A stretch of DNA of 64,000 nt from Nitrospira sp. (GCA_029194665.1 JARFXO010000005.1:186001-250000); one strand, 5' to 3'. Counted from the stretch's first letter, positions 13,661-39,713 are shown. Notes: generated by a model not told the origin, from the sequence alone. Numbers and translations: made by a program.

Positions 13661-13699
13661 CCCAGCCGGTGATCGCCCGCCGTTGCCGATACCGAATGC

Positions 13700-15883: not shown

Positions 15884-15942
15884 CTCGGTTCGGCGCAGCG
15901 GATCGTCATCTGCTGCGCGACCTGCCTTCCGATCCAATCACA

Positions 15943-17286: not shown

Positions 17287-17298
17287 CCGAGGACCACT

Positions 17299-17754
17299 AT
17301 GATTAAATTTCTCGTTGTCGTGGCGTTGCTTGTCGGGGCATTCGGAGCAGGCTACTATCTCGGACAGCGGCCGGTTGGAACGTTGCAGCGAACGGTCGCG
17401 GAACTTCAACAGTCGTTGAAGGATGTGTCCAGAGACGTGTTGGACACGACACGCGGGATCGAGCGCGATCTCCGTCGGCGTCAGGGCCTCGTGGAGGCCA
17501 AATCTCGGTTGGTCCAGGCGAAAGCACACCTCACCGATCGCAATTTCGGCGACGCAGCGAAAGAATTGTCCGAGGCCATCAATGCCGTGGAGAACATCAC
17601 AAAAGGAACCAAGCCCGATCACTCAACCAAAGAGTTACAGGACATGGCCGGATCGCTTCGGGAGGTGAAGTCGGACATTGAGATGGGGAAACCAGTATCG
17701 CTGAAGAAGCTGGACGAACTTCAGCAGAAAATGGATCAACTGCTGAATACATAA
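17299..17754 (+). CDS. Membrane-anchored coiled-coil hypothetical protein
   Basis: A 151-residue protein with one N-terminal membrane helix (FLVVVALLVGAFGAGYYLG) followed by a long helical, heptad-like region (LQRTVAELQQSLKDVSRDVL, LDELQQKMDQLLNT). It has no catalytic motif. It lies 12 bases after the HEAT-repeat gene and probably shares its transcript, suggesting an envelope assembly role, which is inference. Confidence 0.6.
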   Translation: MIKFLVVVALLVGAFGAGYYLGQRPVGTLQRTVAELQQSLKDVSRDVLDTTRGIERDLRRRQGLVEAKSRLVQAKAHLTDRNFGDAAKELSEAINAVENITKGTKPDHSTKELQDMAGSLREVKSDIEMGKPVSLKKLDELQQKMDQLLNT

Positions 17755-20164: not shown

Positions 20165-21151
20165 GTGATCGACGTTCAAAACATTACCAAGCGGTATGGC
20201 CATCATACGGCTATCGATGGCGTCAGCTTCTCGGTGGCCAAGGGAGAGGTCTTGGCATTCCTCGGCCCCAACGGCGCCGGCAAAACAACCACCATGCGGA
20301 TTTTGACCTGCTTCATGCCGGCGACAGAAGGCACGGTGCGAGTGGCGGGATTTGATTGCACCGAACAGCCATTAGAGGTGAAACGGCGGATCGGCTACCT
20401 GCCGGAGACGCCCCCGGTCTACCAAGAGCTGACGGTGAAGGAATATCTGATCTTTGTCGGGCGACTGCGTGGGATCACGGGACAGAAACTCTCGTCAGCA
20501 ATCGACCAATCTGTCGAACGACTTGAGCTGGGGTCAGTCCGCCATCGACTGATCGGCAACCTCTCTCGCGGCTATCGTCAACGTGTGGGACTGGCGCAAG
20601 CGCTGCTGCATGACCCCCCGGTGCTGATCCTCGATGAACCGACGGTCGGTCTTGACCCGAAGCAAATCATTGAGATCAGAGAGCTCATCAAGAGCTTGGC
20701 CGGCTCACATTCCGTGATTCTCAGCACGCATATCCTTCCGGAGGCCACCGCAGTCTGCCAGCGGGTGGTCATCATCAATAAGGGCCGTATCGTCGCGGAA
20801 GATACTCCCGCACAGTTGTCGGCCCGATTGCGCCAATCGGAGAAAGTTTCGATTACCCTCAGGACATGTCCTGCGGACTGCGAGATGAAGCTTCGCGCGA
20901 TTCCCGGTATTCTCAATGTTCTGCCCGGACAGGCTGGAGGAAGCTTCCTGATCGAGTGCGAGCTGGGCCATGATCTACGGGATGACATTGCACGCGTCGC
21001 CGTTTTGAGCCAGTGGGGATTGCTTGAGCTCCGCACCCTATCTATGACGTTGGAAGACGTCTTTCTCCAGCTCACGCGTCACGAGGACCACCTTTCCGAG
21101 CCGGCTGAGACCACGGTCGGCATGGTTGCCGCCGAAAGGACGGACGCGTAG
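20165..21151 (+). CDS. ABC transporter ATP-binding protein (Gld/NosF type)
   Basis: A 328-residue ATPase with Walker A GPNGAGKTTT near residue 37, signature LSRGYRQRVGLAQALL and Walker B VLILDEPTVGLDP, plus a C-terminal extension of about 100 residues. It is of the GldA/NosF type and would energise the permease encoded next. The start is a GTG without an obvious SD; no better start is visible. First gene of a four-gene operon with small gaps and one overlap (21927-21930). Confidence 0.9.
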   Translation: MIDVQNITKRYGHHTAIDGVSFSVAKGEVLAFLGPNGAGKTTTMRILTCFMPATEGTVRVAGFDCTEQPLEVKRRIGYLPETPPVYQELTVKEYLIFVGRLRGITGQKLSSAIDQSVERLELGSVRHRLIGNLSRGYRQRVGLAQALLHDPPVLILDEPTVGLDPKQIIEIRELIKSLAGSHSVILSTHILPEATAVCQRVVIINKGRIVAEDTPAQLSARLRQSEKVSITLRTCPADCEMKLRAIPGILNVLPGQAGGSFLIECELGHDLRDDIARVAVLSQWGLLELRTLSMTLEDVFLQLTRHEDHLSEPAETTVGMVAAERTDA

Positions 21152-21159
21152 GAGCACGT

Positions 21160-21930
21160 ATGACCCCGGTACAGGCCGTCATCGCCAAGGAACTGCGCGG
21201 CTATTTCGTCTCGCCCATTGTCTACGTGGTCGGCGCGGTCTTTCTGTTGATCTTCGGTCTGCTCTCCTACCTCTACGTCGGTTTCGCCGGCGCGCAAGCC
21301 ATCCAAATGATGCAGATGCAAGGAGGATTGGCCCAGATCAATTTGAACGATTTGGTGTTTCGGAATCTCTTCGCGAGCATGCGGATCGTTCTCGTGATTA
21401 TTCTGCCCATCCTGACCATGCGGTTGTTCGCGGAAGAGCGCAAGTTGCGCACCTTCGAGTTTCTGATGACCTCGCCGATCAGGATCAATGAAATCGTCAT
21501 CGGCAAATTCGTCAGTGCGTTCTTGGTCTATCTCGCCCTCGTAGGACTCACCATATTGGTCCCGACGGTGCTGATGCTCTTCAGCGACTTCGATTGGAAT
21601 CCCATCTGGACCGGCTATTTAGGAATGGTGCTGCTGGGCGCGCTGTTTATTTCCGTGGGCCTGTTTGCCTCAGCACTGACGGAGAATCAAATCGTCGCCG
21701 CTTTTGTCAGCTTCGGCATGCTCCTGACCATCTGGCTGATCGCCGGATTGGGAAGCCTTTTCGGAGATAGCACCGCAGGCCGCGTCATCTCGTATGTTTC
21801 CTACATGGAACACTATGAACGATTGGTGCGGGGGTTGATCGACACGAGCGACCTCATCTACTTCGGGAGCGGGTTGGCGCTCATGCTGTTCCTCACGCAT
21901 CGCGTCGTGGAGTCGACCAGCTGGAAATGA
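21160..21930 (+). CDS. ABC transporter permease (GldF type)
   Basis: A 256-residue protein with about six membrane helices (for example IVYVVGAVFLLIFGLLSYLY and IVAAFVSFGMLLTIWLIAGL), matching the ABC-2 permease of Gld-like systems. Its last four bases overlap the next gene, so it is translationally coupled. In gliding bacteria GldF/GldG form an exporter used in motility and adhesin secretion; the substrate here is not known. Confidence 0.88.
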   Translation: MTPVQAVIAKELRGYFVSPIVYVVGAVFLLIFGLLSYLYVGFAGAQAIQMMQMQGGLAQINLNDLVFRNLFASMRIVLVIILPILTMRLFAEERKLRTFEFLMTSPIRINEIVIGKFVSAFLVYLALVGLTILVPTVLMLFSDFDWNPIWTGYLGMVLLGALFISVGLFASALTENQIVAAFVSFGMLLTIWLIAGLGSLFGDSTAGRVISYVSYMEHYERLVRGLIDTSDLIYFGSGLALMLFLTHRVVESTSWK

Positions 21931-23450
21931 ACCTGAAATCCTTTCCTCTCGGCATTCTCGGAGTCGCGCTCGGCATCGGCGGCATGATCGCCTATAGTCT
22001 TCGACCTGACTGGCTGTGGGTCGTCACCATCGGGGAGGGGGCGGCACTCGTCTGTTTGGTACTGTTCTTCGTTCTGCATTTTGAGACCGTCAAGGCATTC
22101 TCAAGCCGACGATCGACCAGGATGGGGCTGAACAGCTTTCTCATGGTCCTGCTGTTTTCCGGCATTTTGATCATCGTGAACTTTTTAGCCTCCCGACACT
22201 CGATACGGTGGGATCTCTCCGAAAATCAAAATTTTACCCTCGCCCCGCAAACCCATCGGGTTCTCCGAGCCTTGCCGCACGACGTCAAGATCACGGTCTT
22301 CACGCGGGAAAAGGACCCCGGCTATCAACCCTACAAGGAACGCTTGGAAAGTTATCGGCAAGCTTCCACCAAGCTCAGCGTCGAATTCATCGATCCGGAA
22401 AAACAACCGAAAATCGCCCAAAGCTACGGGATCTTCCGAAGCGATACCGCGATTTTCGAGAGCAACGGCCAGACGATCCGCGTGACCTCGCCGTCGGAAG
22501 TGGAGTTGACCGGTGCCTTGATCCGGATTTCCAAGGACGCCAAGAAGCGCATCGTCTTTGTCGAAGGCCACAGCGAGTTGAATGTAGAGGACAAAGACCG
22601 CAACGGTCTCTCTATCGCCAAAGAAGCCCTGACGCGGCAAGGCTATGACGTCGGCACCGTCTCGCTCCTCAAGGAGTCGGCTGTGCCGGAAAATACGTCG
22701 GTGTTGGTGTTGGCCGGTCCTCGTCGTTCTGTGACGAAGGAAGAACAGGAGCGTATTAAGGCGTATGTCGAGAAGGGCGGTCATCTCTTAGTCCTGGCTG
22801 ACCCGGATACTCAGACAGGTCTGGAGCCGATGCTGGCCCATTGGGGGATCGGCCTAGGTCCGGGAGTGTTGGTCGATTTACAGGACCGATTGGCGCAGGG
22901 AGACCTCACCGCGCTGTTGGTTCGGACGTTCACCGAGCATGAGATTACGCGTGATCTCACCTCTGCCGTGCTCTTGCCGCTTTCGCGACACGTCACGTTC
23001 GATGAACAGGTCGGGAAAGACTGGGACTTCGTGCCGCTGGCTCGCACCTCACCGAACAGCTGGGCTGAAACGAACATACAGGGCCGGGTCGTGAGCCTGA
23101 GCGAAAAGGAAGACGTGAAAGGACCGCTTCCCATGGCTGCGGCGTTGTCGCCGAAAAAAGCTCCGGAAGAGGGCAAACCTCGGCCTGCCATCGTGGTGAT
23201 CGGGAACTCGACCTTCGTGTCCAACGCCTTTTTCAACTTCCCCGGCAACAGCGACTTCTTCCTCCATACGACCGGTTGGCTGGCCGAGGAACGGGACTTG
23301 ATTTCCATCGCGCCTAAGGAGCCGGCGTTGCGTCCGTTTACTCCCAACCCCACTCAGGAGCTGGCCCTGATTTACGTTCAAGTGATTTTTCTTCCACTCG
23401 TGACGTTGCTCACCGGCATCATCGTGTGGAGAAAACGCCGCCGCCTCTAG
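21927..23450 (+). CDS. GldG-type ABC transporter auxiliary protein
   Basis: A 507-residue protein: two N-terminal membrane helices (ILGVALGIGGMIAYSLRP and ILIIVNFLA regions), a large extracytoplasmic ABC_transp_aux domain (LSENQNFTLAPQTHRVL, VLVLAGPRRSVTKEEQERI) and a C-terminal helix (VIFLPLVTLLTGIIVW) with a basic tail. This architecture is typical of GldG partners of GldF. Overlaps the permease stop. Confidence 0.85.
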   Translation: MNLKSFPLGILGVALGIGGMIAYSLRPDWLWVVTIGEGAALVCLVLFFVLHFETVKAFSSRRSTRMGLNSFLMVLLFSGILIIVNFLASRHSIRWDLSENQNFTLAPQTHRVLRALPHDVKITVFTREKDPGYQPYKERLESYRQASTKLSVEFIDPEKQPKIAQSYGIFRSDTAIFESNGQTIRVTSPSEVELTGALIRISKDAKKRIVFVEGHSELNVEDKDRNGLSIAKEALTRQGYDVGTVSLLKESAVPENTSVLVLAGPRRSVTKEEQERIKAYVEKGGHLLVLADPDTQTGLEPMLAHWGIGLGPGVLVDLQDRLAQGDLTALLVRTFTEHEITRDLTSAVLLPLSRHVTFDEQVGKDWDFVPLARTSPNSWAETNIQGRVVSLSEKEDVKGPLPMAAALSPKKAPEEGKPRPAIVVIGNSTFVSNAFFNFPGNSDFFLHTTGWLAEERDLISIAPKEPALRPFTPNPTQELALIYVQVIFLPLVTLLTGIIVWRKRRRL

Positions 23451-23453
23451 CCC

Positions 23454-24836
23454 ATGACCCGTTACTGGCCCACACTCTTGTTGGTGGCGATTCTCGCCGG
23501 TCTCGGTGGCTATCTCTACCTTGTTGAATTTCCAGCCAAGGAGCGAGAAGAGAAACAGGAAAGCGAACAGAAGCATATTCTGCCTTTTCCGGAAACTGCG
23601 ATCACTGGCCTCTCGATCACCACCGCTCAGGGACCCATCCAATTTAAGCAGACGGAAGCAGGCAAATGGTCGATCGTGGCTCCACTTCAAACCGACGCCG
23701 ATAATCGCGAGGTACAGGCGCTTATTCGAGCGCTCGTGACAGGAACCGTGAGCAGAACGGTCGAGGAGCAGGCCACGCAGCTCGTGCCATTCGGGCTCGA
23801 ACAGCCGGTCACCGCCATCACCCTAACAGCCGGGACCCAGCAAGAGACGATTTCCATCGGCGACAGCGGCCCTCTTTCCAATACTCTCTATGTGCTCCGA
23901 GGGTCGGATCGGCATGTGCTGTTAACGAATTTGGCACCGAAAGACTTCATCAACAAGTCGTTGATGACATTCCGCCGCAAGGAGCTCTTGCGGTTCGTGC
24001 AGAATGAGGTCGAACGTGTCCGCCTGACTTATCCCACGACCGAAATCGTAATCTACAATATGACGAAAGATAAGCCCAGGCCTTCCTGGAAGATCCGTTA
24101 TCCGATCGAAGCCGAAGCAGACCAGAATGAAGTCCGCTCGTTGATGTTTCGGTTGGAAGATCTGAAGGCGCTCGGCATCATTGATTCCGGTCCCGAGCGA
24201 GATGCCGTTGCCAAGACCCTGACGGCCCCCAGAGTAAAAATCACGCTGCATACCTCAACCGGTGACCAATCGGTTCGGTTGTATCAACCGAACCCGCAAA
24301 GCGGGGAGGCCATCGCGGAGACGATGGCCGAGGCTCCGCTCTATCGGATCAACCCCGCACTGATCAAAGATCTCACGAAGGAACTCTTCAATCTGCAGGA
24401 CAAACGACTGCTGGGCCTCGACTACACCGACATCGCCATGTTGTCGGTAAAGACGAGAGATCAGCAGTACGTCCTGATCAACCAGACCGGCGAGTGGGTA
24501 GTCGAAGACCAAGCCACCGAGAAAGTGAGCCAAGAAGCGGCAGATCTCTTTGTCAGTCGGGTCGCGAATCTCCCGGCCGAAGAACGTGTCATGAAGCAAT
24601 CCGCGCCTCTAGCCCCCTATGGGTTACTGTCTCCCGCTGCAGAATTTATCGCGACCAGCAAGGACGGCAAGACCTCAGGAAAACTGACCCTCGGCAATCA
24701 GGCAGGCAATCTCCGCTATGCCTCCGGTCAACGTCTGCAAGGTGTCTATCTGGTCCGCCCGGATCTCCTCACGCAGATTCCCTCCAAGGCCAATCTCCTT
24801 GCCAAGTCGCAAGAAAAACCCCCTGCGGGACGCTGA
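23454..24836 (+). CDS. DUF4340 domain protein, exporter-associated
   Basis: A 460-residue protein with an N-terminal membrane anchor (LLLVAILAGLGGYLYLVEF) and repeated extracytoplasmic modules of the DUF4340 type (ITGLSITTAQGPIQF, KWSIVAPLQTDADN, then repeats). DUF4340 genes are commonly next to GldFG-type ABC systems, as here (3 bases after the previous stop). Its molecular role is unknown. Confidence 0.82.
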   Translation: MTRYWPTLLLVAILAGLGGYLYLVEFPAKEREEKQESEQKHILPFPETAITGLSITTAQGPIQFKQTEAGKWSIVAPLQTDADNREVQALIRALVTGTVSRTVEEQATQLVPFGLEQPVTAITLTAGTQQETISIGDSGPLSNTLYVLRGSDRHVLLTNLAPKDFINKSLMTFRRKELLRFVQNEVERVRLTYPTTEIVIYNMTKDKPRPSWKIRYPIEAEADQNEVRSLMFRLEDLKALGIIDSGPERDAVAKTLTAPRVKITLHTSTGDQSVRLYQPNPQSGEAIAETMAEAPLYRINPALIKDLTKELFNLQDKRLLGLDYTDIAMLSVKTRDQQYVLINQTGEWVVEDQATEKVSQEAADLFVSRVANLPAEERVMKQSAPLAPYGLLSPAAEFIATSKDGKTSGKLTLGNQAGNLRYASGQRLQGVYLVRPDLLTQIPSKANLLAKSQEKPPAGR

Positions 24837-25029: not shown

Positions 25030-25104
25030 CGGTGTCCCTGGATGGGGCTCATAAGCATGAAGAGTTCTCGACTCACAACATCGACTGAAAGCGACCCGCT
25101 TTAC

Positions 25105-26121
25105 ATGAGACGGAATCATATCGACTCTGGACAACGGTTTGTCGCCGTCCTTATCTCCGCAATCGGCTTGAGCGCCTATGGCTGCAAAGACTCCGCGTCG
25201 ATCTCGGATGAAGTTCAGGTACCGCTTTCCAGCTTAGCTGTCACTCCCGGTGCCCTTCAGCCGACGTTTTCCGGCAATACTACCGACTATAGGGTCGATG
25301 CGCCGACATCCGCAGCCGGCGTTACCGTGACAGCCACTCCCAAGGACAGCACGACAACCATGACAATCAATGGGATTCAGACCTCTGCGGGGCAGGGGAG
25401 ATCCGTGTCGTTAGGCGCACCGGGGACAACTACAACCGTTTCCATTGCCTTAACGTCACAGACGGGCCAGGAAAGCACCTATACCGTCGCCGTCACGAGA
25501 CTCCTATCGAGCGACAACAATCTGTCGGCGCTGACGGTGGAACCAGGCACTCTGGATCCTGCCTTTTCCTCAGGAACCTTGACCTACACAGCGAATGTTG
25601 CGACCGACGTCACCCAAGTGACCGTCTCCGCGACCAAGTCCGATTCGAATGCTGTCCTGTCCGGGTCGATCGCTGATCCTGGGGTGGGGCAAGCGACCGG
25701 TCAAGCGCCCATTCTGCTCGGTGGGCCGGGGACGTCGACCCCTGTGACAATCACGGTGACCGCCCCAAATGGAAACAGCCAGACCTACAGCGTCACGGTG
25801 AACCGAGCGGCTCCCTCGAGTGACAACAATCTGTCGGTCCTGACGGTAACGGGAGGCTCCTTGGTTCCTGGTTTTGCTCCAAGCACGACCGCTTACACTA
25901 TGGGCGTTCCAGCCAACGTCACTAGCGCGACGGTCTCCGCGACCAAGTCTGATTCAGACGCCGTGATGTCGGGTGACGTCACGGCTGGGACAGGGGTCGC
26001 AACAGGCCAAGCAACGTTTCTACTCGTCCCATTGATACCCAGAACTGTGTCGATCATCATCACGGCTCCGAATGGAGCCTCCAAGGCATACATCATCACC
26101 ATCATCCGAGCACTCTTATAG
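25105..26121 (+). CDS. Cadherin-like beta-sandwich repeat lipoprotein 1
   Basis: About 338 residues: a signal segment ending at lipobox LSAYGC, then three repeats of roughly 95 residues of the cadherin-like beta-sandwich type (LAVTPGALQP, LSALTVEPGTLDP, LSVLTVTGGSLVP, each ending in YTV.VTR or VNRA). Predicted to be anchored in the envelope and exposed; related repeats serve in adhesion or cell-surface binding. Start 25105 fits a 70-nt leader from the predicted promoter, whereas an ATG at 25042 would be almost leaderless. First of five tandem paralogues; gene 2 follows after 37 bases. Confidence 0.85.
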   Translation: MRRNHIDSGQRFVAVLISAIGLSAYGCKDSASISDEVQVPLSSLAVTPGALQPTFSGNTTDYRVDAPTSAAGVTVTATPKDSTTTMTINGIQTSAGQGRSVSLGAPGTTTTVSIALTSQTGQESTYTVAVTRLLSSDNNLSALTVEPGTLDPAFSSGTLTYTANVATDVTQVTVSATKSDSNAVLSGSIADPGVGQATGQAPILLGGPGTSTPVTITVTAPNGNSQTYSVTVNRAAPSSDNNLSVLTVTGGSLVPGFAPSTTAYTMGVPANVTSATVSATKSDSDAVMSGDVTAGTGVATGQATFLLVPLIPRTVSIIITAPNGASKAYIITIIRALL

Positions 26122-26158
26122 AACGCTTCACACCTCTAGAGAAAGAGACTAATTCCCC

Positions 26159-28075
26159 ATGACCATGCCTACCGTGACCGTCGTGCGACAGTATCTGACA
26201 GCCGTCCTTCTCATCGCGATCGGCTTGATAGCCTTTGGCTGCGGGGACAAAGCGACCGTCAACCCAGTGGTCGAACTCGCCAGCCTGACGGTCACTACCG
26301 GAACCACTACCGCAACCCTCCAACCGCCCTTTACCGGCGGCACCACTGAATACAATGTCAACCTCACCAGCGACGTCACGAGTGTGAGGGTCACCGCACA
26401 ACCGGCCGTAGCGGGAGATACGGTCACGATCAATGGCCAGGCCACGACAAGCAGCGTTATTCCCCTGGGCGCGGCAGGAACGACGACGCCGGTGAGCATC
26501 GTCGTGTCGGAATCAAACACGAATTCGAGGACCTACACAGTTCTTCTGGTGAGAGCCGGCCCAAATGGGAACAACTCGTTACAGAGCTTGACTGTGTCGC
26601 CCGGGACCTTGGCTCCTACATTCGATCCGAACTTGCAAACCTATACCGTCGATGTTGCCAACAATATCGGAAGTATCACGGTGACCCCCACGCTTTCGGA
26701 TCCTGCTGCGACGATGACCGTGAACGGGCAAGCCACTAACTCCGGACAGGCTCGCACCATTACCCTAAGCCCTGCCGGCCAAGACACCGCCATCCCGATT
26801 GTCGTGACTGCTCAGAACAACAGTACCAAAATCTACACTGTGACGGTGAGTCGCGGAGTATCCAGTAATAACAACTTGCAGAGCTTGATCCTATCACCGG
26901 GAACATTAAACTTCAGCCCTAATATCACCAGTTACACCGTGAATGTGGCAAGCAATGCGACCAGTGTTGTCGTCACGCCGACACTACAAGATGCCACCGC
27001 CAGCATGACCGTGGATGGGCAAGGCACCAACTCCGGCCAGGCCCGAACCATTCCCTTGGGCGCACCGGGTTCGAACACGCTTATCCTCATTATTGTGACC
27101 GCACAGAACGGTGCTCAGAAAACCTACTCGGTCAACGTTCATCGTGCCGCGCTTAGCGCAAACAATAATCTCCAGGCCTTGACCGTGTCGCCTGGCTCTT
27201 TGTCTCCTGCCTTTGACGCGAGCACCGTCAACTACGCGGTGACTGTCGGTAGCAATGTCGCGAACGTCACTGTCTTGGCAACCAAAGCCGATCCGAATGC
27301 CGTGATGTCTGGGGACGTAACAGCGGCGACAGGAACGGCGACAGGTCAAGCGACCATTCAACTCGGCGGGCCGGGAACAACCACGCCTGTGTTGATCAGC
27401 GTGACTGCCCCAAATGGAAGCTCAAAGACGTATCGCATCAACGTGACCCGAGCACTCTCCAGCAACGATAACCTGTCGGCGTTGTCGGTGACGGAAGGCT
27501 CCTTGGTTCCTGGCTTTGCTCCAGGCACGACGACCTACGCAGTGGACGTTCCATGGAATGTCGGTAGCGTGACGGTTTCCGCCACTAAGTCCGACTCGAA
27601 CGCCGTCCTGTCCGGTTCGATTGCTGATCCCGGGGTGGGGCAAGCGACCGGTCAAGCGACCATTCAACTCGGTGCGCCGGGGACGTCGACCCCAGTGACA
27701 ATCACGGTGACCGCTCCGAATGGTAACAGCCAGACCTACAGCGTCACGGTGAACCGAGCGGCGCCCTCGAGTGACAACAATCTGTCGGCCTTGACGGTGA
27801 CGGGAGGCCCCTTGGTTCCTGATTTTGCTCCAAGCACGACACAGTACACGGTGAACGTTCCAGCCAATGTCGCGAGCGTGACGGTCTCCGCGACCAAGTC
27901 TGATCCGAACGCAGTGATGTCGGGTGACGTCGTGGCTGGGACAGGGGTCCCAATAGGCCAAGCGACCTTTGATCAACTCGTGCCATTGACACCAAGGATT
28001 GTGTCGATCACCGTCACGGCACCGAATGAAGTCTCAAAGCCGTACAGCGTTACCATCACACGAGCGCTCTTCTAG
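26159..28075 (+). CDS. Cadherin-like beta-sandwich repeat lipoprotein 2
   Basis: A 638-residue lipoprotein (lipobox LIAFGC) with six repeats (SLTVTTGT..., SLQSLTVSPGTLAP, NLQSLILSPGTLNF, NLQALTVSPGSLSP, NLSALSVTEGSLVP, NLSALTVTGGPLVP). Repeats 5-6 closely match repeats 2-3 of gene 1 at the DNA level. It lacks its own promoter dyad and is only 37 bases from gene 1, so it is probably read from the gene 1 promoter. GAAAGAGACT upstream of the ATG matches the leader of gene 3. Confidence 0.88.
   Translation: MTMPTVTVVRQYLTAVLLIAIGLIAFGCGDKATVNPVVELASLTVTTGTTTATLQPPFTGGTTEYNVNLTSDVTSVRVTAQPAVAGDTVTINGQATTSSVIPLGAAGTTTPVSIVVSESNTNSRTYTVLLVRAGPNGNNSLQSLTVSPGTLAPTFDPNLQTYTVDVANNIGSITVTPTLSDPAATMTVNGQATNSGQARTITLSPAGQDTAIPIVVTAQNNSTKIYTVTVSRGVSSNNNLQSLILSPGTLNFSPNITSYTVNVASNATSVVVTPTLQDATASMTVDGQGTNSGQARTIPLGAPGSNTLILIIVTAQNGAQKTYSVNVHRAALSANNNLQALTVSPGSLSPAFDASTVNYAVTVGSNVANVTVLATKADPNAVMSGDVTAATGTATGQATIQLGGPGTTTPVLISVTAPNGSSKTYRINVTRALSSNDNLSALSVTEGSLVPGFAPGTTTYAVDVPWNVGSVTVSATKSDSNAVLSGSIADPGVGQATGQATIQLGAPGTSTPVTITVTAPNGNSQTYSVTVNRAAPSSDNNLSALTVTGGPLVPDFAPSTTQYTVNVPANVASVTVSATKSDPNAVMSGDVVAGTGVPIGQATFDQLVPLTPRIVSITVTAPNEVSKPYSVTITRALF
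26927..27001 (+). repeat. 75-nt exact repeat shared with gene 3
   Basis: These 75 bases in gene 2 recur unchanged at 29284-29358 in gene 3 (both copies span ACCGTGAATGTGGCAAGC). Exact identity within otherwise diverged repeats suggests recent copying. Confidence 0.75.
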
Positions 28076-28395
28076 AAACAATGTGGCTATCAAATGTAAG
28101 GAGTCCAACAGCTCAGAGAAGCGGCCCGTTTGACATCGTCACAACAGTTGACCTGCGAAGCGCTCGACCAGTCTGATCCCGTATCAGGCTCTCTCGTGGA
28201 GAACACAGCGAAGCACCAACAGAATCGGTTATCACCTTGTCCTCTCAGCTCTTCCGTCGGTCTTGAACCAGTTCAACTTGCTCATGCCGGTTCCCCACCT
28301 CTCGAACAGGATCTCCGACATCACCGGAAAGATCGACCCTAGGCATGCTCACTAATCGTCTCTACACCTAATAGAGCTGATCGCCATTCGTCCTT

Positions 28396-28439
28396 ATACC
28401 TAAGTAGGTATGGACCAATCTTTAGACCTCCCGTAATAT
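28396..28439 (+). promoter_or_regulatory. Promoter and 16-bp dyad for lipoprotein gene 3
   Basis: The dyad ATACCTAAGTAGGTAT (28396-28411, 7-2-7 arms) touches TGGACC (-35, 28411-28416), then 17 bases and TAATAT (-10, 28434-28439). The dyad centre is about -42.5 from the predicted start, the usual place for an activator overlapping the -35 box. The remainder of the gap 28076-28515 shows no gene. Confidence 0.6.
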
Positions 28440-28515
28440 CCGCCAGCTTCACTGAGATTCACCATTCATGATGGACCTGACGCTTCGCGCCTTTAAAGAA
28501 AGAGATCAAATCACC

Positions 28516-30459
28516 ATGATGCGTACCATCCACGTCGTGAAACAGCATCTAGCTGCCGCGTTTTTCGTCGCGATCGGTTTGATAGCCTCTGGCTGCGGGG
28601 ACGCAGCGACGGTCAGCGAACCGGCAGAACTCGGTAACCTGTCGGTCTCCGCTGGAACTCTACGACCGGCTTTTGCCCCTGCAACAACTGAGTACACCGT
28701 TCAGCTCTCCAGCGCTGTCTCGAGTACGACCATCACTGCAAGCCCTCGAACAGACGGGGACACCATACATATCGACAACCAGCAGACAATGAGTCGGACC
28801 ATGGCTCTCGACTCGCCAGGCGCGGAGAAGTCCGTAAGTATCGTCGTCACAGGAACAGGCACAGGAGGTGGTTCGAAGTCCTACACCGTTCGTGTCAAGC
28901 GAGACTTAGAGGATAACTCGTTACAGGCCCTCTCCGTTTCGAGCGGAACTCTGGCTCCCGCCCCATTCGATAAGGACACGCTCGACTATACGGCCAATAA
29001 TGTCGGTACGTCTGTCACCAGCGTTACCATCGCGGCCACCAAGTCTGATCAAAATTCGGTCATGCAGATCGGTGCGGTCACCGTTCCGGCAGGAACTGCG
29101 TCGGGGCAGGCGACCGTTCAGCTCGGCGGCACAGGGTCAGCCACACCTGTGTCGATAGACATCACGCGCCCGAGCGGGAGTAAGAAGACCTACACGGTTA
29201 CCATACATCGCGGCGCATCAGCCAATAACAACTTGCGAGGTTTAACGATTTCACAGGGAACGTTAAGCTTTAGGGCAAGTACAACCAGTTACACCGTGAA
29301 TGTGGCAAGCAATGCGACCAGTGTTGTCGTCACGCCGACACTACAAGATGCCACCGCCGGCATGACCGTGAATGGGCAAGACACCAACTCCGGCCAGGCC
29401 CGAACCATTCCATTGGGCGCACCTGGTTCAAACACCATTATCAATATTCTTGTAATTGCACAGAACGGTACCCCGAATCCCTATTCGGTGAACGTCATTC
29501 GTGCCGCCCTTGGCGGGAACAACAATCTGCGGAGTTTGACCGTCTTGCCAGGCAGCCTGACCCCTGCATTCAGGGCAAATAGGACCGGCTACACGGTGAA
29601 CCTCGGGAGTAACATCGACAATCTCACCGTGACCGCTTCCGTGCAAGATGCAGGGGCAATCTTGATGATTAATGGGCAAGGAGCCGGCTCTGGTCAGTCC
29701 CGCCCGGTTCCATTAGAGCCGCCCGGCTCGACTACGGAAATTGACATTACAGTGGTCGCTCCGAATGGAAACCCTAGGACATATCAAATCAACGCCAGCC
29801 GCGAGGCCCTCGGGGGCAACAATAATCTGTCGGCTTTGACGGTGTCGCCCGGCACCTTGGCCCCCGTCTTTAATGCAAACTCCATGGGATATACGGTGAA
29901 CGTCGGGAGCGCCGTTACCAACATTAACGTCTCTGCAACCAAAGTCGACTCGAATGCCGTGATGTCCGGGGACGTGTCGGCCGGGACAGGTGTCGCAACG
30001 GGCCAGGCCACTATTCCGCTGAATGGGGCAGGGACCAGCACACCCCTGTCGGTTACTGTGACCGCTCCGAATGGTAGTCCCAAGACATACAGCATCATCG
30101 TCAACCGAGCGGCGCCAACGGCACCACCAGCGCCGGCAAGCGCACCGGATCTGACGCCGGAGAGTGATTCCGGATTCAACCCCGGCCAGGATGCCGACAA
30201 CATCACTAATGACTTGACACCGAGCTTCGCAGTGGCCCCGCCTGCGGCGGGAGAGACTCCGAACCTTTATATAGACGGGGTTAAAGTCAAGGAAGGGTTT
30301 GATGAGGGAGCGAACACCCTCACCCCGACGAACCCGCTTCCTGGCGGTGAATACGATATTACTGTTACCAGCACGGTGACCAATGCAGCAGGCCTTGAGT
30401 CTCTCCCGAGTCCGTCCCTGAACGTGCACATTGACAACGTAGCCCCGGGATTCCCGTAG
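28516..30459 (+). CDS. Cadherin-like beta-sandwich repeat lipoprotein 3 with Ig-like tail
   Basis: A lipoprotein of about 647 residues (lipobox LIASGC) with five cadherin-like repeats (NLSVSAGTLRP, LQALSVSSGTLAP, NLRGLTISQGTLSF, NLRSLTVLPGSLTP, NLSALTVSPGTLAP). After a proline/alanine linker it ends in a bacterial Ig-like domain of the large-adhesin type (PDLTPESDSGFNPGQDAD, DNITNDLTPSF, NVHIDNVAP), absent from the other four. The start at 28516 follows GAAAGAGATC, like gene 2; an earlier ATG at 28468 is possible. Confidence 0.86.
   Translation: MMRTIHVVKQHLAAAFFVAIGLIASGCGDAATVSEPAELGNLSVSAGTLRPAFAPATTEYTVQLSSAVSSTTITASPRTDGDTIHIDNQQTMSRTMALDSPGAEKSVSIVVTGTGTGGGSKSYTVRVKRDLEDNSLQALSVSSGTLAPAPFDKDTLDYTANNVGTSVTSVTIAATKSDQNSVMQIGAVTVPAGTASGQATVQLGGTGSATPVSIDITRPSGSKKTYTVTIHRGASANNNLRGLTISQGTLSFRASTTSYTVNVASNATSVVVTPTLQDATAGMTVNGQDTNSGQARTIPLGAPGSNTIINILVIAQNGTPNPYSVNVIRAALGGNNNLRSLTVLPGSLTPAFRANRTGYTVNLGSNIDNLTVTASVQDAGAILMINGQGAGSGQSRPVPLEPPGSTTEIDITVVAPNGNPRTYQINASREALGGNNNLSALTVSPGTLAPVFNANSMGYTVNVGSAVTNINVSATKVDSNAVMSGDVSAGTGVATGQATIPLNGAGTSTPLSVTVTAPNGSPKTYSIIVNRAAPTAPPAPASAPDLTPESDSGFNPGQDADNITNDLTPSFAVAPPAAGETPNLYIDGVKVKEGFDEGANTLTPTNPLPGGEYDITVTSTVTNAAGLESLPSPSLNVHIDNVAPGFP
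29284..29358 (+). repeat. Second copy of the 75-nt repeat
   Basis: Identical to 26927-27001 in gene 2. The two copies diverge immediately outside. Confidence 0.75.
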
Positions 30460-30600
30460 GCCCGGGGCCGCGCCGAGGTGAGCAATACCGCCAGGGGGAT
30501 CGTCCCGATTCCCTTCGTGCTATTCACATCCTGCTGGCTCCTGATCCCCTCTCTTCCTCCGACCAAAAGCATGGCTGATACCTTCAGCGTACTTCGCCTT

Positions 30601-30642
30601 ACCTAAGTAGGTCTGGACCAATCTCAAACCCTCTCATACCAT
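30601..30642 (+). promoter_or_regulatory. Promoter and dyad for lipoprotein gene 4
   Basis: Dyad ACCTA-AG-TAGGT at 30601-30612, then TGGACC (-35, 30614-30619), 17 bases and TACCAT (30637-30642) as a weak -10. The stretch from the dyad to TGGACCAATCT matches the gene 3 region almost base for base. Dyad centre about -42.5. The gap 30460-30719 has no other gene. Confidence 0.55.
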
Positions 30643-30719
30643 CCGAATCTGTCGGCTGACCTTTTCAGGGATCGAGCGATGCATCACCTCTGTTCTACGA
30701 GAAAGTGGAGTAACACCAA

Positions 30720-32663
30720 ATGAGAGGTATCCTGACCTTTGTAGGACAATGTTTTGCTGTTGTTGCCGTCACGATCGGCTTAAGTTCGTACGGCTGTATG
30801 GGCTCGACCACCGTGAACCCAGTGGCCGAGCTCGCCAGTCTGACGGTCACTCCCGGAACACTCCAACCGGCCTTTACCAGCGGGACAACTCAATACACCG
30901 TCGATCTCACCCGCAAAGTTACAAGCGTGAAGATCACGGCGCAACCTGCCGTGGCGGGAGATACCATCACGATCAATGGCCAAGCCACGACGAGCAGCAC
31001 CATTACCCTTGGCTCGGAAGGGTCGACTACTTCCGTCAGTATCGTCGTGTCCGAATCAACGAACAATTCTCGTACCTATATCGTGCTTCTCAAGAGAGCG
31101 AGCGTAGCCGGGAACAATTCGTTGGCGAGCTTGACCGTTTCGCCCGGAACGCTGGCTCCCGTATTCAACGAGAACACGCTGACCTATAGCGTCGATGTTG
31201 CCAACAATGTCGAAAGTGTCACAGTGAAGCCCACTCTTCAAGACTCTGCTGCGACGATGACGGTGAACGGAGAAGCTAGGAACTCAGGGGAGAGCCTACC
31301 ACCCATACAGTTGGGCGGAGCGGGCTCAAGCACCCCTATCGATATAGTGGTGATCGCCCAGAACAACAGTCAGAAAACCTACCACGTCACTGTAAACCGC
31401 GGAAAATCAGGCAATAACTTCTTGGAGAGCCTGGAGATTTCACCAGGCACGTTAGACCCCTTCTTTACCCCCGGCACAGAAGGCTATACGGTGAATTTGC
31501 CAAGTATTTTACCGGGCAACACGACCAGCATGACGGTCACGCCGACACTGCAAGATGCTACGGCCAGCATGACAGTGAATGGGCAACCCGCTCCCTCAGG
31601 GCAGGCCCAAACCACCCCGCTGCCCGCCCCTGGCGCGACCACCGCGATCAACATCGCGGTGACCGCGCAAAATAACACCGAAAGAACATATACAGTGACC
31701 ATCATCCGTGCCGCACTCAACGGAAACAATTTTCTGTCGGCCTTGACCATTTCGCCGGGCACGTTAACCCCGATCTTCAACGCCGGCACAGAAGGTTACA
31801 CGGTGAATTTGCCGAGCATTTTACCGGGCAACCCGACCAGCATGACGGTCACGCCGACGTTGCAAGATACCACCGCGAGCATGAGCATAAGTGTCGACAA
31901 CGGATCACCCACCAACATCAATTCCGGGGAGGCCCGAAGCACTCCGTTGCCCGCCCCTGGCGCGACCACCGCGATCAACATCGCGGTGACCGCGCAAAAT
32001 AACACCGAAAGAACATATACAGTGACCATCATCCGTGCCGCACTGAGCGGTAACAATAATCTGTCGGCTTTGACGGTCACGCCTCCTGGCACCCCTATTC
32101 CCGGCTTCAGCCCAAACATCTTGACCTATACGGTAAACGTAGCCACCGATGTCATTAGTGTCACGGTGACTGCGACGCTTGAAGATATCAATGCCAGTAT
32201 GACGATCAACGGCCAAGGTACCAGCTCAGGAGTGGCAAGTGCTCCGATTACTCTTGGTGGAGCGGGATCGGACAGGACCATCACGATCATCGTAATAGCT
32301 CCGAATGGTAGCCAAAAGATCTACACCGTCACGGTCCATCGAGCGTCATCGAGCAATAGCAACCTGTCGGCTTTGAGCGTGTCACAAGGTGTCCTCGACA
32401 ACCCGTTCGATCCGAACCAGCTGAGTTACACGGTGAACGTCGATAGCACAGTTGATAGTGTAGTTATCTCCGCAACGAAGGCTGATCTGCAGGCCACCAT
32501 GTCCTCCTTGGGCTCGGTGATTGCTGCACCAGGTGACCCGGATGGACAGGTGCTGGTCACATTGGGGGCTGGACCGAGCACAGAGGTGGTAACGATTACG
32601 GTGATCGCACAGGATATGGCAAGTCAGAGCCCCTATACCGTCACTGTCAACAAAGCGCCCTAG
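30720..32663 (+). CDS. Cadherin-like beta-sandwich repeat lipoprotein 4
   Basis: A 647-residue lipoprotein (lipobox LSSYGC) with six repeats (SLTVTPGTLQP, SLASLTVSPGTLAP, FLESLEISPGTLDP, FLSALTISPGTLTP, NLSALTVTPPGTPIP, NLSALSVSQGVLDN). Repeats 3 and 4 are nearly identical in DNA and share a 97-base exact copy. First half most like gene 2. Predicted envelope-anchored. Confidence 0.87.
   Translation: MRGILTFVGQCFAVVAVTIGLSSYGCMGSTTVNPVAELASLTVTPGTLQPAFTSGTTQYTVDLTRKVTSVKITAQPAVAGDTITINGQATTSSTITLGSEGSTTSVSIVVSESTNNSRTYIVLLKRASVAGNNSLASLTVSPGTLAPVFNENTLTYSVDVANNVESVTVKPTLQDSAATMTVNGEARNSGESLPPIQLGGAGSSTPIDIVVIAQNNSQKTYHVTVNRGKSGNNFLESLEISPGTLDPFFTPGTEGYTVNLPSILPGNTTSMTVTPTLQDATASMTVNGQPAPSGQAQTTPLPAPGATTAINIAVTAQNNTERTYTVTIIRAALNGNNFLSALTISPGTLTPIFNAGTEGYTVNLPSILPGNPTSMTVTPTLQDTTASMSISVDNGSPTNINSGEARSTPLPAPGATTAINIAVTAQNNTERTYTVTIIRAALSGNNNLSALTVTPPGTPIPGFSPNILTYTVNVATDVISVTVTATLEDINASMTINGQGTSSGVASAPITLGGAGSDRTITIIVIAPNGSQKIYTVTVHRASSSNSNLSALSVSQGVLDNPFDPNQLSYTVNVDSTVDSVVISATKADLQATMSSLGSVIAAPGDPDGQVLVTLGAGPSTEVVTITVIAQDMASQSPYTVTVNKAP
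31621..32044 (+). repeat. Tandem repeat pair with a 97-nt exact duplicate
   Basis: Bases 31621-31717 are identical to 31948-32044 (327 bases apart, one repeat unit), inside repeats 3 and 4 of gene 4. The flanking parts of the two units are also closely similar. This marks a recent repeat duplication. Confidence 0.75.
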
Positions 32664-32799
32664 GGTGAAACAAAATCCGCCTCCAGTTCTCCGGTCTCGC
32701 ACGCCACGATCCATCCTAACCATCGGTGACCAGGCAGAACTGGCTCCTCCCCGGATATCCTGTCACTGCATGTGTCCTGGTCGCACACACATCGGTCCA

Positions 32800-32859
32800 C
32801 GACCTCTCGATTAGAGGTCGATTAGAAGCCTTGACCTCATCAGTAGGATTGGCTATAGT
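32800..32859 (+). promoter_or_regulatory. Strong predicted promoter with dyad for lipoprotein gene 5
   Basis: TTGACC (32831-32836), a 17-base spacer and TATAGT (32854-32859) form a good sigma70 promoter with a start near 32866. Upstream is an 8-bp-arm dyad, CGACCTCT-CGATT-AGAGGTCG (32800-32820), centred about -56, so its sequence and spacing differ from genes 3 and 4. The gap 32664-32978 has no other gene. Confidence 0.55.
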
Positions 32860-32978
32860 CCAAACCCCTGCTCAGTGCTTGCAGAGTTTGGGACCCTCTC
32901 GTAGCCTCGACATCTACCGTTTGGGTTCACCGCAGCAATCTATCGTTCCATGCACCAAAAGAAGTGACCGGTATTACT

Positions 32979-33995
32979 ATGACGCGCATGTTCACCATCA
33001 CCGGACAATATTTCGCCCTTATCATTCTTGCCATCATGGGTTTGCTTTCCTCTGGTTGCGGTGATTCCGCGTCGGTCTCGCAAGGGCCAGATGTGCCTCT
33101 CGCCAACTTGACGATCAGTCCTGGGGCGCTTCAGCCGCCTTTTTCGAGCAACACCGTCACGTATGGAGCCAATGTGTCACCGGCAGTCGGCGCTGTTACG
33201 GTGACGGCCACCCCTCAAGACAGCACGGCGACGGTCACGATCGCTGGAACAGCGACTCAAAGTCTTACGGTTACACTCGGAGCGCCAGGATCGAGCAAAG
33301 ATATCACGATCATAGTGACGTCGACGAACGGAAGTCAGAGTACCTATACCATCACGGTCCACAGAGCAGCCTTATCAGGGAACACCGCCTTATCGGCACT
33401 GACTGTGACACCCGGCACCTTGGCTCCCGCCTTTACTCCAAGCACCATGAACTACACGGTGGACGTGGCGATGGATGTCGCGAGCGTGACGGTCTCCGCG
33501 ACCAAGGACGATCCAAGTGCCGTCTTGTCCGGCTCCATCCCCAATCCCGGGCCGGGACAAGCAACAGGGCAGGCGACCATTCAGCTGGGTGCGCAGGGGT
33601 CAGCCACACCTGTGTCGATCATCGTCATTGCACCGAACGGCAACTCCGATACATACCGTATCATTGTGAACCGAGCTGCGCCGTCAAGTAACAACAAACT
33701 ATCGGCCTTGACCGTGTCCGCCGGCACCTTGGTTCCGGCGTTTTCCCCTGATACGGAAAACTATACGGTGGGTGTGGCAGCTGCCAACGGATCCGTGACT
33801 ATTTCTGCGACCAAGTCCGATCCGAATGCCGTGATGGCGCTGGGTTCGGTGATCGTCGGGGCGGGGACGCCGACAGGTCAAACGTCCATCCAATTGGGCC
33901 CTGGGGCAAGCCTACCAGTGAACATTATCGTGACGGCGCAGGATCAAATAAGCATAAAGCAGTATACTGTTACCGTGAGCCGACCGTTATCGTGA
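32979..33995 (+). CDS. Cadherin-like beta-sandwich repeat lipoprotein 5
   Basis: About 338 residues (lipobox LLSSGC) with three repeats (NLTISPGALQP, ALSALTVTPGTLAP, KLSALTVSAGTLVP), the same repeat number as gene 1, which it most resembles in its first repeat. Convergent with the response regulator gene, 39 bases away. Confidence 0.86.
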   Translation: MTRMFTITGQYFALIILAIMGLLSSGCGDSASVSQGPDVPLANLTISPGALQPPFSSNTVTYGANVSPAVGAVTVTATPQDSTATVTIAGTATQSLTVTLGAPGSSKDITIIVTSTNGSQSTYTITVHRAALSGNTALSALTVTPGTLAPAFTPSTMNYTVDVAMDVASVTVSATKDDPSAVLSGSIPNPGPGQATGQATIQLGAQGSATPVSIIVIAPNGNSDTYRIIVNRAAPSSNNKLSALTVSAGTLVPAFSPDTENYTVGVAAANGSVTISATKSDPNAVMALGSVIVGAGTPTGQTSIQLGPGASLPVNIIVTAQDQISIKQYTVTVSRPLS

Positions 33996-34034
33996 ACCTC
34001 TTCGAATGCGAATCCCCTTGCCGGACAGAAATTC

Positions 34035-34706
34035 CTACCGTTTTGGATCCAGCTCGATCAAGCCCTTCCGGATGGCGAGGATGGCGGCTTGCGTGCGATC
34101 GTAGACTTGCAGCTTGTGGAAGATATTCCGGACGTGATTCTTCACCGTCTTTTCGCTCAAATCAAGGTTGTTGGCGATCTCTTTGTTGGTTTTTCCGTCG
34201 GCGACCAATCGTAGCACCGTAATCTCTCGATCCGTCAAATCATGCTCGGCCCAGGCCGACTTCTTGCCTTTCTTTTGGGCCATCAATGAGAATTCCGCCA
34301 AGATTTTACTGGCCACGGACGGATGGATCAGCGATTCGCCTCGATAGATGGCACGAATGGCCGCAACGATCTGGGACGATTCAGAGTCTTTCAAAAGATA
34401 TCCGGTCGCTCCCGCGCGGACCAGATCGAAGATGTACTGTTGTTCTTCGTACATGGTCAACGCGACGATGCCGATGTGTGGAAACTCGCGCTTGATTTGT
34501 CTCGTCGCCTCGACGCCGCCCATCCGCGGCATGCTGACATCCATGAGAATCACATCGGGGAGCAGCGTACGCGCTTTTTCCACCGCTTCCATCCCGTCTT
34601 GCGCTTCGCCGATGACCTGAATGTCTTCCTTGGTCTTGAGAATGGCGGCCAAGCCTTCCCGAACCACCCGATGATCGTCGGCGATCAGAACCTTAATTTT
34701 TTCCAT
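34035..34706 (-). CDS. NarL/FixJ-family response regulator
   Basis: A 223-residue regulator: receiver domain (DDH at 10-12, phospho-acceptor D56 in DVILMDVSMP, GYLLKD) and a C-terminal GerE/LuxR helix-turn-helix (LTDREITVLRLVADGKTNKE, LSEKTVKNHVRNIFHKL). It binds DNA as a dimer at dyad sites. The ATG at 34706 has AAGGAGGAG upstream. It overlaps the kinase gene by 14 bases, so the pair is translationally coupled. Its targets are unknown; the dyads of the adjacent lipoprotein genes are candidates. Confidence 0.92.
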   Translation of the reverse strand: MEKIKVLIADDHRVVREGLAAILKTKEDIQVIGEAQDGMEAVEKARTLLPDVILMDVSMPRMGGVEATRQIKREFPHIGIVALTMYEEQQYIFDLVRAGATGYLLKDSESSQIVAAIRAIYRGESLIHPSVASKILAEFSLMAQKKGKKSAWAEHDLTDREITVLRLVADGKTNKEIANNLDLSEKTVKNHVRNIFHKLQVYDRTQAAILAIRKGLIELDPKR

Positions 34707-35799
34707 TCCCTGGCTCCTCCTTGTGACCCAGCGGCACCTCGACGATGATTTTCGTGCCTTTCCCCGGTTTGGACTGGACGCGCCCTTCGCCACCCACCAA
34801 GCGAGCTCGTTCCAAGATCCCCTTGATGCCAAAATGATCCCACTTTTCGGGGTCACGCAGAACGGTTTCCAGATCGAACCCGATGCCATTGTCGGAAATC
34901 GTTACGCGCAACAGATCCATCTCGATGTCCAGGTTGATTGAGACTCGGTCGGCCTTGGCGTGTTTTTCGACGTTGCTCAAGGCTTCCTGAATGATTCGAA
35001 AAAGAAAGATCTTCGTCCGTGGAAAGAGAATCTGCTCATCCCCCGTGACCGAAAACTTCGTGGCGATGTGGGTCTGGGTCTGATACGACTTGAAATAATT
35101 CGTGAGGGCTGGAATCAATTCCATCTTGTCGTAGTGCAAGGGGCGCAGATTGAAGATGACTTGGCGGGCTTCCTGTATGGCCAGCTTCAGTTGGGCCTTA
35201 CTCTCCTTGAGGGTCGCCAAACTGGCTCGCGGGTTCTTCCGAAGAAGTTGCTGGCAAAGATCCAGCTTGAAGTTCACCCCCGCTAAGCTCTGCACGAGTC
35301 CGTCGTGGATCTCGCAAGCGATTCTGGTTCGTTCTTCCGTCACTGCAGCTCCGGTTTCTTTGACGTACAATCGATAGAGCGATTGGTACTTGTTCAGTGC
35401 CTTTTCAATCTCCCCGGTCGCGCGAATGCGGGCTTCGATGAGTTCCCACATGAATTTCGCGCTGGCACCGCCGATGATGGTGACACCCATACGATGAAAA
35501 TCTTGGAGAAACTTCCGGACTTCTCCATCACCCGATACGTCGATGATCAGATCGACAGGTTCCATCGTCAGCAGCTGTCGATAGTTGCGTGTAATCGGGA
35601 TGTTGAGCTGTTTGGCCAATCCTAATCCCGGCGCTTCCGGATCACGTTCGGCAACACCGACGATTTGCACCAGTGGATCAATCGCAAATATCTCCATGAG
35701 CGCGGTGCCCCCGCGGCCCGCTCCGATGATTGCGACGCTCGTCGCTCCGGAGATCGGCTGGTTCCGTCTGGCACGCTGCTGGGGAGCCGGCTTATTCAT
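34693..35799 (-). CDS. NarX-type histidine kinase with Rossmann-fold sensor domain
   Basis: A 368-residue kinase. Residues about 20-120 form a Rossmann-type nucleotide-binding domain: SVAIIGAGRGGTALMEIF with GxGxxG at 26-31, then IVGVAERDP and VDLIIDVSGDGEV. After a coiled linker comes a HisKA_3 dimerisation domain with phospho-acceptor H165 (IACEIHDGLVQSL) and a HATPase (FRIIQEALSNVEKHAKAD, ISDNGIGFD, GIKGILERA). There are no membrane helices, so it is a cytoplasmic sensor, perhaps of a dinucleotide redox state. Start 35799 has GAAGGTG 9 nt upstream. Confidence 0.88.
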   Translation of the reverse strand: MNKPAPQQRARRNQPISGATSVAIIGAGRGGTALMEIFAIDPLVQIVGVAERDPEAPGLGLAKQLNIPITRNYRQLLTMEPVDLIIDVSGDGEVRKFLQDFHRMGVTIIGGASAKFMWELIEARIRATGEIEKALNKYQSLYRLYVKETGAAVTEERTRIACEIHDGLVQSLAGVNFKLDLCQQLLRKNPRASLATLKESKAQLKLAIQEARQVIFNLRPLHYDKMELIPALTNYFKSYQTQTHIATKFSVTGDEQILFPRTKIFLFRIIQEALSNVEKHAKADRVSINLDIEMDLLRVTISDNGIGFDLETVLRDPEKWDHFGIKGILERARLVGGEGRVQSKPGKGTKIIVEVPLGHKEEPGNGKN

Positions 35800-35908
35800 A
35801 GATTCCACACCTTCTACACAGCTCACCGGGGTCAACAACGGACGAATGTCGAATCGGACGAGATTCCCAAGAGCTGGAAAGAGAAAGGATGGGGTCCGAA
35901 GTTGCGTC

Positions 35909-38387: not shown

Positions 38388-39713
38388 TTACTTCATCCGA
38401 TGGAATTCGACGATGTCGCCCTGCCCATCGAGCTCCAGCGTAATAGGGGTCCCTTCTCTTGCCCCACTCAGCGAAGATTTCCCAAAATCTGCCGGGTAGG
38501 TCTGTTCACCCTCGGGGGTCCAAAGCCTGACACTGGATCGATCCGGATCGGCAAATTCCAATGGGCCTGTGATGAACCGCCGGATCGGTGCAGAATCGCT
38601 GGACGCGGAGAGATCCGCCACGAGGTGGTGGTCATGCATACGCAAGGTCAAGATTTGCCCGACCTTGGCGTTTTTGATCCCTATCTTGGCGTTGACGTTG
38701 ACAATGCCGATGGGAGTCCGAAAAAAAATGAAATTGGACTTCAGTTTTGAGATGGTTCCGGTCAGCAACAGGTGCGCCTTGGACCCATTGGTAGCCACTT
38801 GACCGATCTGAAGATCGAACTGGAGGTCGTGCACGCCGATGACGTTGTCCTTTCCGTCAACTTCGACCGTCACCGAGTCGCCCTCCTTGCGGGAGGTGAG
38901 TGCCCGCTCAAATGTGCCCATGTGAAAGGCCCTCTCACCTTCCGGTGTCCAGCCCACCAACTGTGTGCCGTTTGCCTGGTCTTGCTTGAACGGTCCAGTC
39001 AGATAGCGGTGGACGAGTGTTCCATCGGTTCGCTTGACGATATCCACGACGACATGGTCCTCGTGGATCCAAAAGAACACCTCTTGCGAGGCGGGGACGG
39101 TTTTGAGCGTGGTCTTTGAACTGAGCGACATAAGCCCAATCGGTGTTTTCAGGAAGACGATGCCAGGCTTGGCCCGCCAGACCCGACCCGTCAGCATGAT
39201 GGAAGGATTCGCTTCAGCGAGAACGGGAGCTGGAGGACTAGGTTCCTGTTGAGCTGTCGGCGGATTGTCGGTTTGTGGCTGAGCGGCCGGAGAGGTGTCG
39301 GGGGGCTGAGCGGGCAGAGTTTCGCTACTCTGAGGCGGAACGGCTACTGGAGCGTCGTGCTGTGAGTCAGTGGGGACAACCGCCTCTGCCTCGGACTGTC
39401 TGGGTGCTGATTGATCGGTCTGCGGTGTCGTCGGTGCCGAGACATTGACCTCTGATTCCGAGGACTGCGTCTGAGGTTGCGTCGTTACAGGGTCATTGAC
39501 CACAGATTCCGAGGGCTGCCTAGGTGCCGCTTGATCAGTCTTGGGTTGAGTCGATGGAGAGGTATCGAGCTGAGTTTCCAAGGGAGTAGGATCGGAGGGC
39601 GGCGTCTGAGCCTTCTCTCCGTCCGCGAGACTTGCTGTGGCGCACCCAGCATTGACTGTTCCGAGGAGAAACAACGCTTGGAATAACCGTCTGGTATATG
39701 AAAGCCGATCCAT
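38388..39713 (-). CDS. Secreted proline/glutamine-rich protein with two tandem beta domains
   Basis: A 441-residue protein with a signal segment (LFQALFLLGTVNAGC, possible lipobox Cys24). A low-complexity Pro/Gln/Ser/Thr linker of about 140 residues follows, then two tandem homologous domains of about 125 residues (VFLKTPIGLMSLSSKT and IFFRTPIGIVNVNAK are the matching openings; HEDHVVVDIV and HDHHLVADLS also match). Envelope protein of unknown function. Confidence 0.65.
   Translation of the reverse strand: MDRLSYTRRLFQALFLLGTVNAGCATASLADGEKAQTPPSDPTPLETQLDTSPSTQPKTDQAAPRQPSESVVNDPVTTQPQTQSSESEVNVSAPTTPQTDQSAPRQSEAEAVVPTDSQHDAPVAVPPQSSETLPAQPPDTSPAAQPQTDNPPTAQQEPSPPAPVLAEANPSIMLTGRVWRAKPGIVFLKTPIGLMSLSSKTTLKTVPASQEVFFWIHEDHVVVDIVKRTDGTLVHRYLTGPFKQDQANGTQLVGWTPEGERAFHMGTFERALTSRKEGDSVTVEVDGKDNVIGVHDLQFDLQIGQVATNGSKAHLLLTGTISKLKSNFIFFRTPIGIVNVNAKIGIKNAKVGQILTLRMHDHHLVADLSASSDSAPIRRFITGPLEFADPDRSSVRLWTPEGEQTYPADFGKSSLSGAREGTPITLELDGQGDIVEFHRMK

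Follow-up and report, generated by a model that had tools for sequence, protein, structure and literature searches.

What an array of tandem repeat-protein genes does for its bacterium, and how its repeats come to differ between close relatives, is the question raised by a locus in 64,000 nucleotides of Nitrospira sp. DNA (the window), where five tandem ORFs on the plus strand at 25042-33995 encode PF12733 repeat proteins. ORF calling and a Pfam profile search (whole-protein E = 3e-39 to 1e-87 across the five proteins) reproduced the 3, 6, 5, 6 and 3 repeat copies, 23 in all on five same-strand genes, that had been counted in an earlier sequence-only reading, and the Ig-like tail noticed there on one gene is a Big_13 domain at the C-terminus of gene 3 (E 3e-8). 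The start given there for gene 1, 25105, is an ATG inside the ORF, and an alternative ATG at 25042 lies 63 nt upstream; either is possible. In a scan of the 4.8-Mb genome, 26 PF12733 domains were found, all 26 exceeding the curated cut-off of 24.2 bits: 23 are in the array and the other three belong to a single gene outside it. This gene, the sixth PF12733 lipoprotein gene of the genome (L069 9567-10703), is a solitary one on a different contig, contig 1, where it is flanked by a kdpA-like gene region and by a TPR-repeat gene. Besides the Big_13 tail, the array proteins have no recognisable ligand-binding or catalytic domain: Pfam gave only PF12733 and the one Big_13, the RTX repeat family was not found, PADLOC anti-phage defence profiles had no match, and neither defence nor phage families were found for the array. 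Features of the locus are collected in Table 1.

Table 1. Positions of the array genes, their repeats and leaders, and the bordering genes, counted from the first nucleotide of the window
Feature	Position	Strand	Remarks
ABC exporter operon	20165..24836	+	ATPase, ABC-2 permease, GldG-type ABC_transp_aux, DUF4340; left border of insertion site
Array gene 1 (slot 1)	25042..26121	+	lipoprotein, 3 PF12733; start 25042 or 25105
Gene 1, 3' half	25618..26123	+	86% identical to 27569-28077 in gene 2; r2-r3 / r5-r6 units in common
Array gene 2 (slot 2)	26159..28075	+	lipoprotein, 6 PF12733; inner r2-r5 the fastest-replaced part
Leader block preceding gene 3 (non-coding, conserved)	28397..28443	+	
Array gene 3	28468..30459	+	lipoprotein, 5 PF12733 and C-terminal Big_13 Ig-like domain (residues 558-656)
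Leader block preceding gene 4 (non-coding, conserved)	30597..30645	+	
Array gene 4	30720..32663	+	lipoprotein, 6 PF12733; N-terminus points to lineage-specific duplicate of gene 2
Repeat-unit tandem duplication inside gene 4	31437..32074	+	period 327, 84% matches
Sigma70-like promoter of gene 5	32831..32857	+	TTGACC-N17-TATA; sole match of the family promoter pattern in the genome
Leader block preceding gene 5 (non-coding, conserved)	32893..32971	+	
Array gene 5 (last slot)	32964..33995	+	lipoprotein, 3 PF12733; AlphaFold2 pLDDT 89
LuxR-type response regulator and HisKA_3 histidine kinase	34035..35838	-	right border of insertion site

The term "cadherin-like", used in the earlier reading, holds as the name of the PF12733 fold and fails as a statement of true cadherin identity, which was dropped because the PF00028 (true cadherin) profile has no match in the whole genome. 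An AlphaFold2 model of gene 5, made with 28 aligned proteins as input, consists of three beta-sandwich domains (pLDDT 89), and its best Foldseek matches are RTX-adhesin extender repeats, a SusE-type surface glycan-binding lipoprotein, S-layer chains and cadherin chains. The top match, the RTX-adhesin extender repeats of 6xi1, has a TM of 0.32 over the chain, which denotes fold resemblance only; the best single-domain match is residues 746-844 of 8yk1 (Z 12.8, rmsd 1.7 over 93 residues), the C-terminal domain of a Bifidobacterium galactosidase. Since PF00028 is unmatched and the matching folds are beta-sandwiches, "cadherin-like" denotes an Ig-like fold only. A sequence search of solved structures with a single array protein as query gave nothing, and the sole solved-structure match of the repeat profile, a phage A1 capsid fusion, was judged implausible.

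All five array proteins begin with a signal peptide ending in a PS51257-like lipobox pattern followed by Cys, in agreement with the lipobox cysteine reported earlier for each gene. The strict pattern is present in 136 of 162 genes scanned genus-wide, and most of the remaining ones keep the Cys or are fragments. Residue +2 is K, G, G, M and G, respectively, in none of the five the Asp of the E. coli inner-membrane rule. Such proteins would be rods of 3-8 tandem Ig-like (PF12733) beta-sandwiches on a lipid anchor. Our preferred reading, to which we give a probability of about 0.55, is that the array encodes lipid-anchored rods of the outer membrane that face outward, are diversified by homologous exchange of repeat units, and serve adhesion or recognition. 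A point against the outward orientation is that outer-membrane lipoproteins can face the periplasm instead.

The array has a fixed chromosomal site. Within the genus it is bordered by the DUF4340 gene on one side and by the response-regulator/kinase genes, then nrdR, glyA and rplI, on the other. The kinase tree places the array-bearing loci in one clade of 34 rows (support 98), in which 31 have the array, two have no array call and one is apparently empty; the closest named relative by this neighbouring kinase is Nitrospira sp. LK70. Array loss in G034 (YR-XLJ-1) was rejected, as about 100 N of scaffold gap interrupt the site, which still holds the start of gene 1. In the neighbouring sister lineage the site is intact and empty, with the same flanking genes and no array, and in four such genomes the neighbours are 18, 20, 71 and 172 nt apart with no N. 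One gain and no proven loss of the array fits best, and the array would thus have originated once, at its present site, in the ancestor of one Nitrospira clade.

Stretches of about 100 N lie in, or replace, the array at L059 7661-7760, L076 4619-4718, L082 9209-9308 and L074 about 3743-3842. Short-read assembly breaks, gaps or collapses at this locus, which is a warning for MAGs; G018, G067 and G068, with N-gaps in the array, were excluded as examples of gene loss. The array-carrying genome has a single AmoA gene, so that it is most likely that of a complete ammonia oxidiser. A link of the array with ammonia oxidation was rejected, AmoA occurring both with and without it.

The exporter operon (ABC_tran, ABC2_membrane, ABC_transp_aux/GldG and DUF4340 by Pfam) lies directly upstream of the array, where the sequence-only reading had noted a Gld-type exporter, and it adjoins the array in nearly all array-bearing genomes. 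The array might accordingly be viewed as cargo or partner of this exporter, for example in Gld-type secretion or assembly. The operon is found, however, in 73 of 79 genus genomes, including array-less ones, and it is intact at the empty sites, so that adjacency says little on function and the proposed functional tie is weak; moreover, G012 has most of its array separated from the exporter, and lipoprotein signals predict the Sec/Lol route. An exporter partnership is improbable, and the operon is a mere neighbour at the array insertion site.

In G067 (L076 7092-9564) the DUF4340 gene is gone and the GldG gene is shortened at the array border, its end lying on another contig, which marks a rearrangement at the array site. 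The split array of G012 has copies of one transposase-like gene by both halves (L191 17639-18724, L194 11369-12412) and a copy of gene 1 in each half, which suggests IS-mediated rearrangement. A transposase-like gene is also present between array genes 1 and 2 of G087 (L085 9093-10046). The histidine kinase at 34693-35838 of the window, which adjoins nrdR and glyA genus-wide, has an N-terminal stretch that weakly matches a DapB_N Rossmann domain and not any known sensor. Further on, 38388-39713 of the window encodes a 441-aa protein with no Pfam match, the mature part of which resembles two similar halves.

The layout of the array is well kept. All 19 gap-free arrays (G018 being left out for its gap) have 4-5 genes and 18-24 repeats, so that the architecture is stable, and the repeat number of their last gene is always 3 or 4. 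When a tree is built from the signal peptide together with the first repeat, many genes group by position across species and thus define slots, and gene 4 is a lineage-specific copy of gene 2.

The inner repeats within this layout change much more rapidly than the adjoining genes. Compared with three close relatives, the array drops in places to 66-75% identity (500-nt bins), against mostly 84-97% in the flanks. The outer repeats of gene 2, r1 and r6, have pS of 0.08-0.35, near the flank values, and the inner repeats r2-r5 have pS of 0.5-0.65 and pN of 0.2-0.3 in comparison with G012 and G030; against G085, pS is high in r3 and r4 only. An inner-repeat pS of 0.5-0.65 indicates that units in matching positions of the gene 2 interior are not the same by recent descent.

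A comparison of gene and repeat numbers among strains had been proposed as a check, and the numbers are not constant even in the closest pair, G090 and G091 (mean marker identity 98.1%, flanks 98%), with 5,7,5,4 and 5,6,5,4 repeats. The difference is in gene 2 (7 versus 6 repeats), whose inner units match at 66-83%; genes 3 and 4 match at 93-100%. When a counterpart is defined as 85% identity over 80% of the unit, 15 of 21 units have one in this pair, 13 of 23 between the window and G030, and only 6 of 20 in the pair G088 and G102, at a marker identity of 96.7%. Overall, close relatives keep a counterpart for 5-18 of 16-31 units, or about 25-75%, though many relatives are MAGs, in which repeats can be misassembled. 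Recent copying is visible directly: G101 and G088 each have adjacent units that are 100% identical along about 295 nt, and in the single-contig genome G023 one unit is 99.6% identical between two different genes. In the window itself, r2-r3 of gene 1 match r5-r6 of gene 2 over 510 columns at 86%.

Exchange might also extend to other strains. Tracts 100% identical to G012 occur in a background of about 90% (bins 13501-17500 and 33001-35500), which suggests recent inter-strain exchange, although mis-binning of co-occurring strains would look alike. Fast turnover of inner repeats is a pattern typical of cell-surface proteins. As for selection, omega is 0.2-0.6 in the array, 0.04-0.22 in exporter, kinase and GlyA, and 0.20-0.46 in the exported neighbour RlpA; it is above most flanking genes and not clearly above RlpA, so that diversifying or positive selection is unproven. 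Repetitive DNA recombines without selection as well, which is a point against a selective reading.

These values also bear on the alternative that the rods are a periplasmic or wall-facing scaffold, spacing the outer membrane, with turnover as neutral slippage in which only length and fold matter. The resemblance of array omega to that of RlpA, the near constancy of 18-24 repeats in 4-5 genes, and a ligand domain not being recognised would all suit such spacers. Slippage accounts poorly, however, for the whole-block replacement of inner units, which goes beyond copy-number change; several diverged slots are retained where one gene would do, and no periplasmic partner is known. We regard the scaffold as unlikely, though it deserves to be kept in mind.

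A leader sequence is conserved upstream of most array genes throughout the clade, with clear copies in the window's genome before genes 3, 4 and 5 only. The pre-start regions of 151 genes have the common words TTGACC...GCTATA, AAGTAGGG.TAGACC, CCCTCTCGTAG, GTTTGGGTTCACC and AGAAAGTGA. A structured leader RNA was rejected, as the leader has no match in Rfam, RNAalifold gave no consensus pairs, and the mean fold z was -0.28. The leader might serve these genes as a common control region, or do no more than anchor recombination through its homology.

Tandem paralogs with common leaders and units exchanged between genes would also be expected of an antigenic or phase-variation locus, in which single cells switch the expressed lipoprotein or repeat set. 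The earlier suggestion of a paralogous family with possible antigenic variation stands insofar as the repeat lipoproteins vary between relatives. In the switching sense it is unsupported: neither simple-sequence tracts nor long good inverted repeats were found in the array, no recombinase was noticed beside it, and it has no silent promoterless cassettes, each gene having its own signal peptide and most a leader. Furthermore, the variation is observed only between species, each represented by one genome. Such switching is very improbable.

The outward-facing, exchanging rods that we prefer would work as follows. The layout of 4-5 slots stays stable and each gene is a mosaic: its signal peptide, first repeat and usually last repeats would be inherited with the chromosome, and the inner units would be duplicated, deleted and swapped with units of neighbouring genes, and probably with those of other strains, by homologous recombination. 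Homology of the units, about 90 residues each, would let recombination add, drop and exchange them within and between genes. The rods, presumably facing outward, might mediate adhesion or co-aggregation, or be what other cells, phages or grazers recognise, and repeat turnover might reflect selection for differing surfaces. Nitrospira grows in microcolonies and biofilms and has few named candidate surface determinants; in two recent papers on comparative genomics, neither lipoproteins nor adhesion nor the cell surface is brought up. Fixed in place, clade-defining and quick to exchange its units, the locus is a candidate for strain-level cell-cell contact or for interactions with phages or grazers. 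A more specific and rather doubtful version is a strain-specific recognition locus, in which mosaic rods would set the sticking or attacking partners of comammox-type Nitrospira, alleles being exchanged between co-occurring strains at a fixed site.

In the open-licence papers searched, no description of a tandem PF12733 lipoprotein array and nothing relevant on Nitrospira with cadherin or related surface terms was found; the family itself is established, all 23 array repeats exceeding its curated cut-off, and those of the papers that use its name concern other organisms. RTX-adhesin extender repeats (6xi1; PMC7493085) resemble the array by fold, being tandem Ig-like beta-sandwich rods of variable repeat number. 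RTX adhesins are giant, calcium-dependent and equipped with ligand-binding domains (PMC7493085, PMC12077191), whereas the array proteins are short lipoproteins made of repeats only; by Pfam, which finds no RTX repeat family in them, they do not show the C-terminal RTX repeats and type 1 secretion signal of that class. Within Nitrospira, He_PIG (PF05345) repeat lipoproteins of other lineages (L066, L067, L199) have Ig-like repeats too, and they neighbour a PF12733 gene with which they have a DVSNAP-type N-terminus in common; they differ from the array in repeat family and in locus (by purH/purD in L066 and L067). PF12733 genes likewise adjoin He_PIG lipoprotein genes in G021, G025 and G265. At L066 2601-8566, L067 2382-5891 and L199 8718-15353, the DVSNAP-type N-terminus goes with PF12733 repeats in some proteins and with He_PIG repeats in others, which looks like a swap of the repeat domain. 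The nearest parallel in arrangement is in another genus of the family, where G313 (L198 6345-17388) has five tandem PF12733 lipoprotein genes with 7,4,4,8,7 repeats. They lie between dinB-like and glutamine-tRNA ligase-like genes and have unlike signal and repeat sequences, possibly representing an independent expansion. Among these relatives, the array is best described as a mosaic family of Ig-like repeat lipoproteins.
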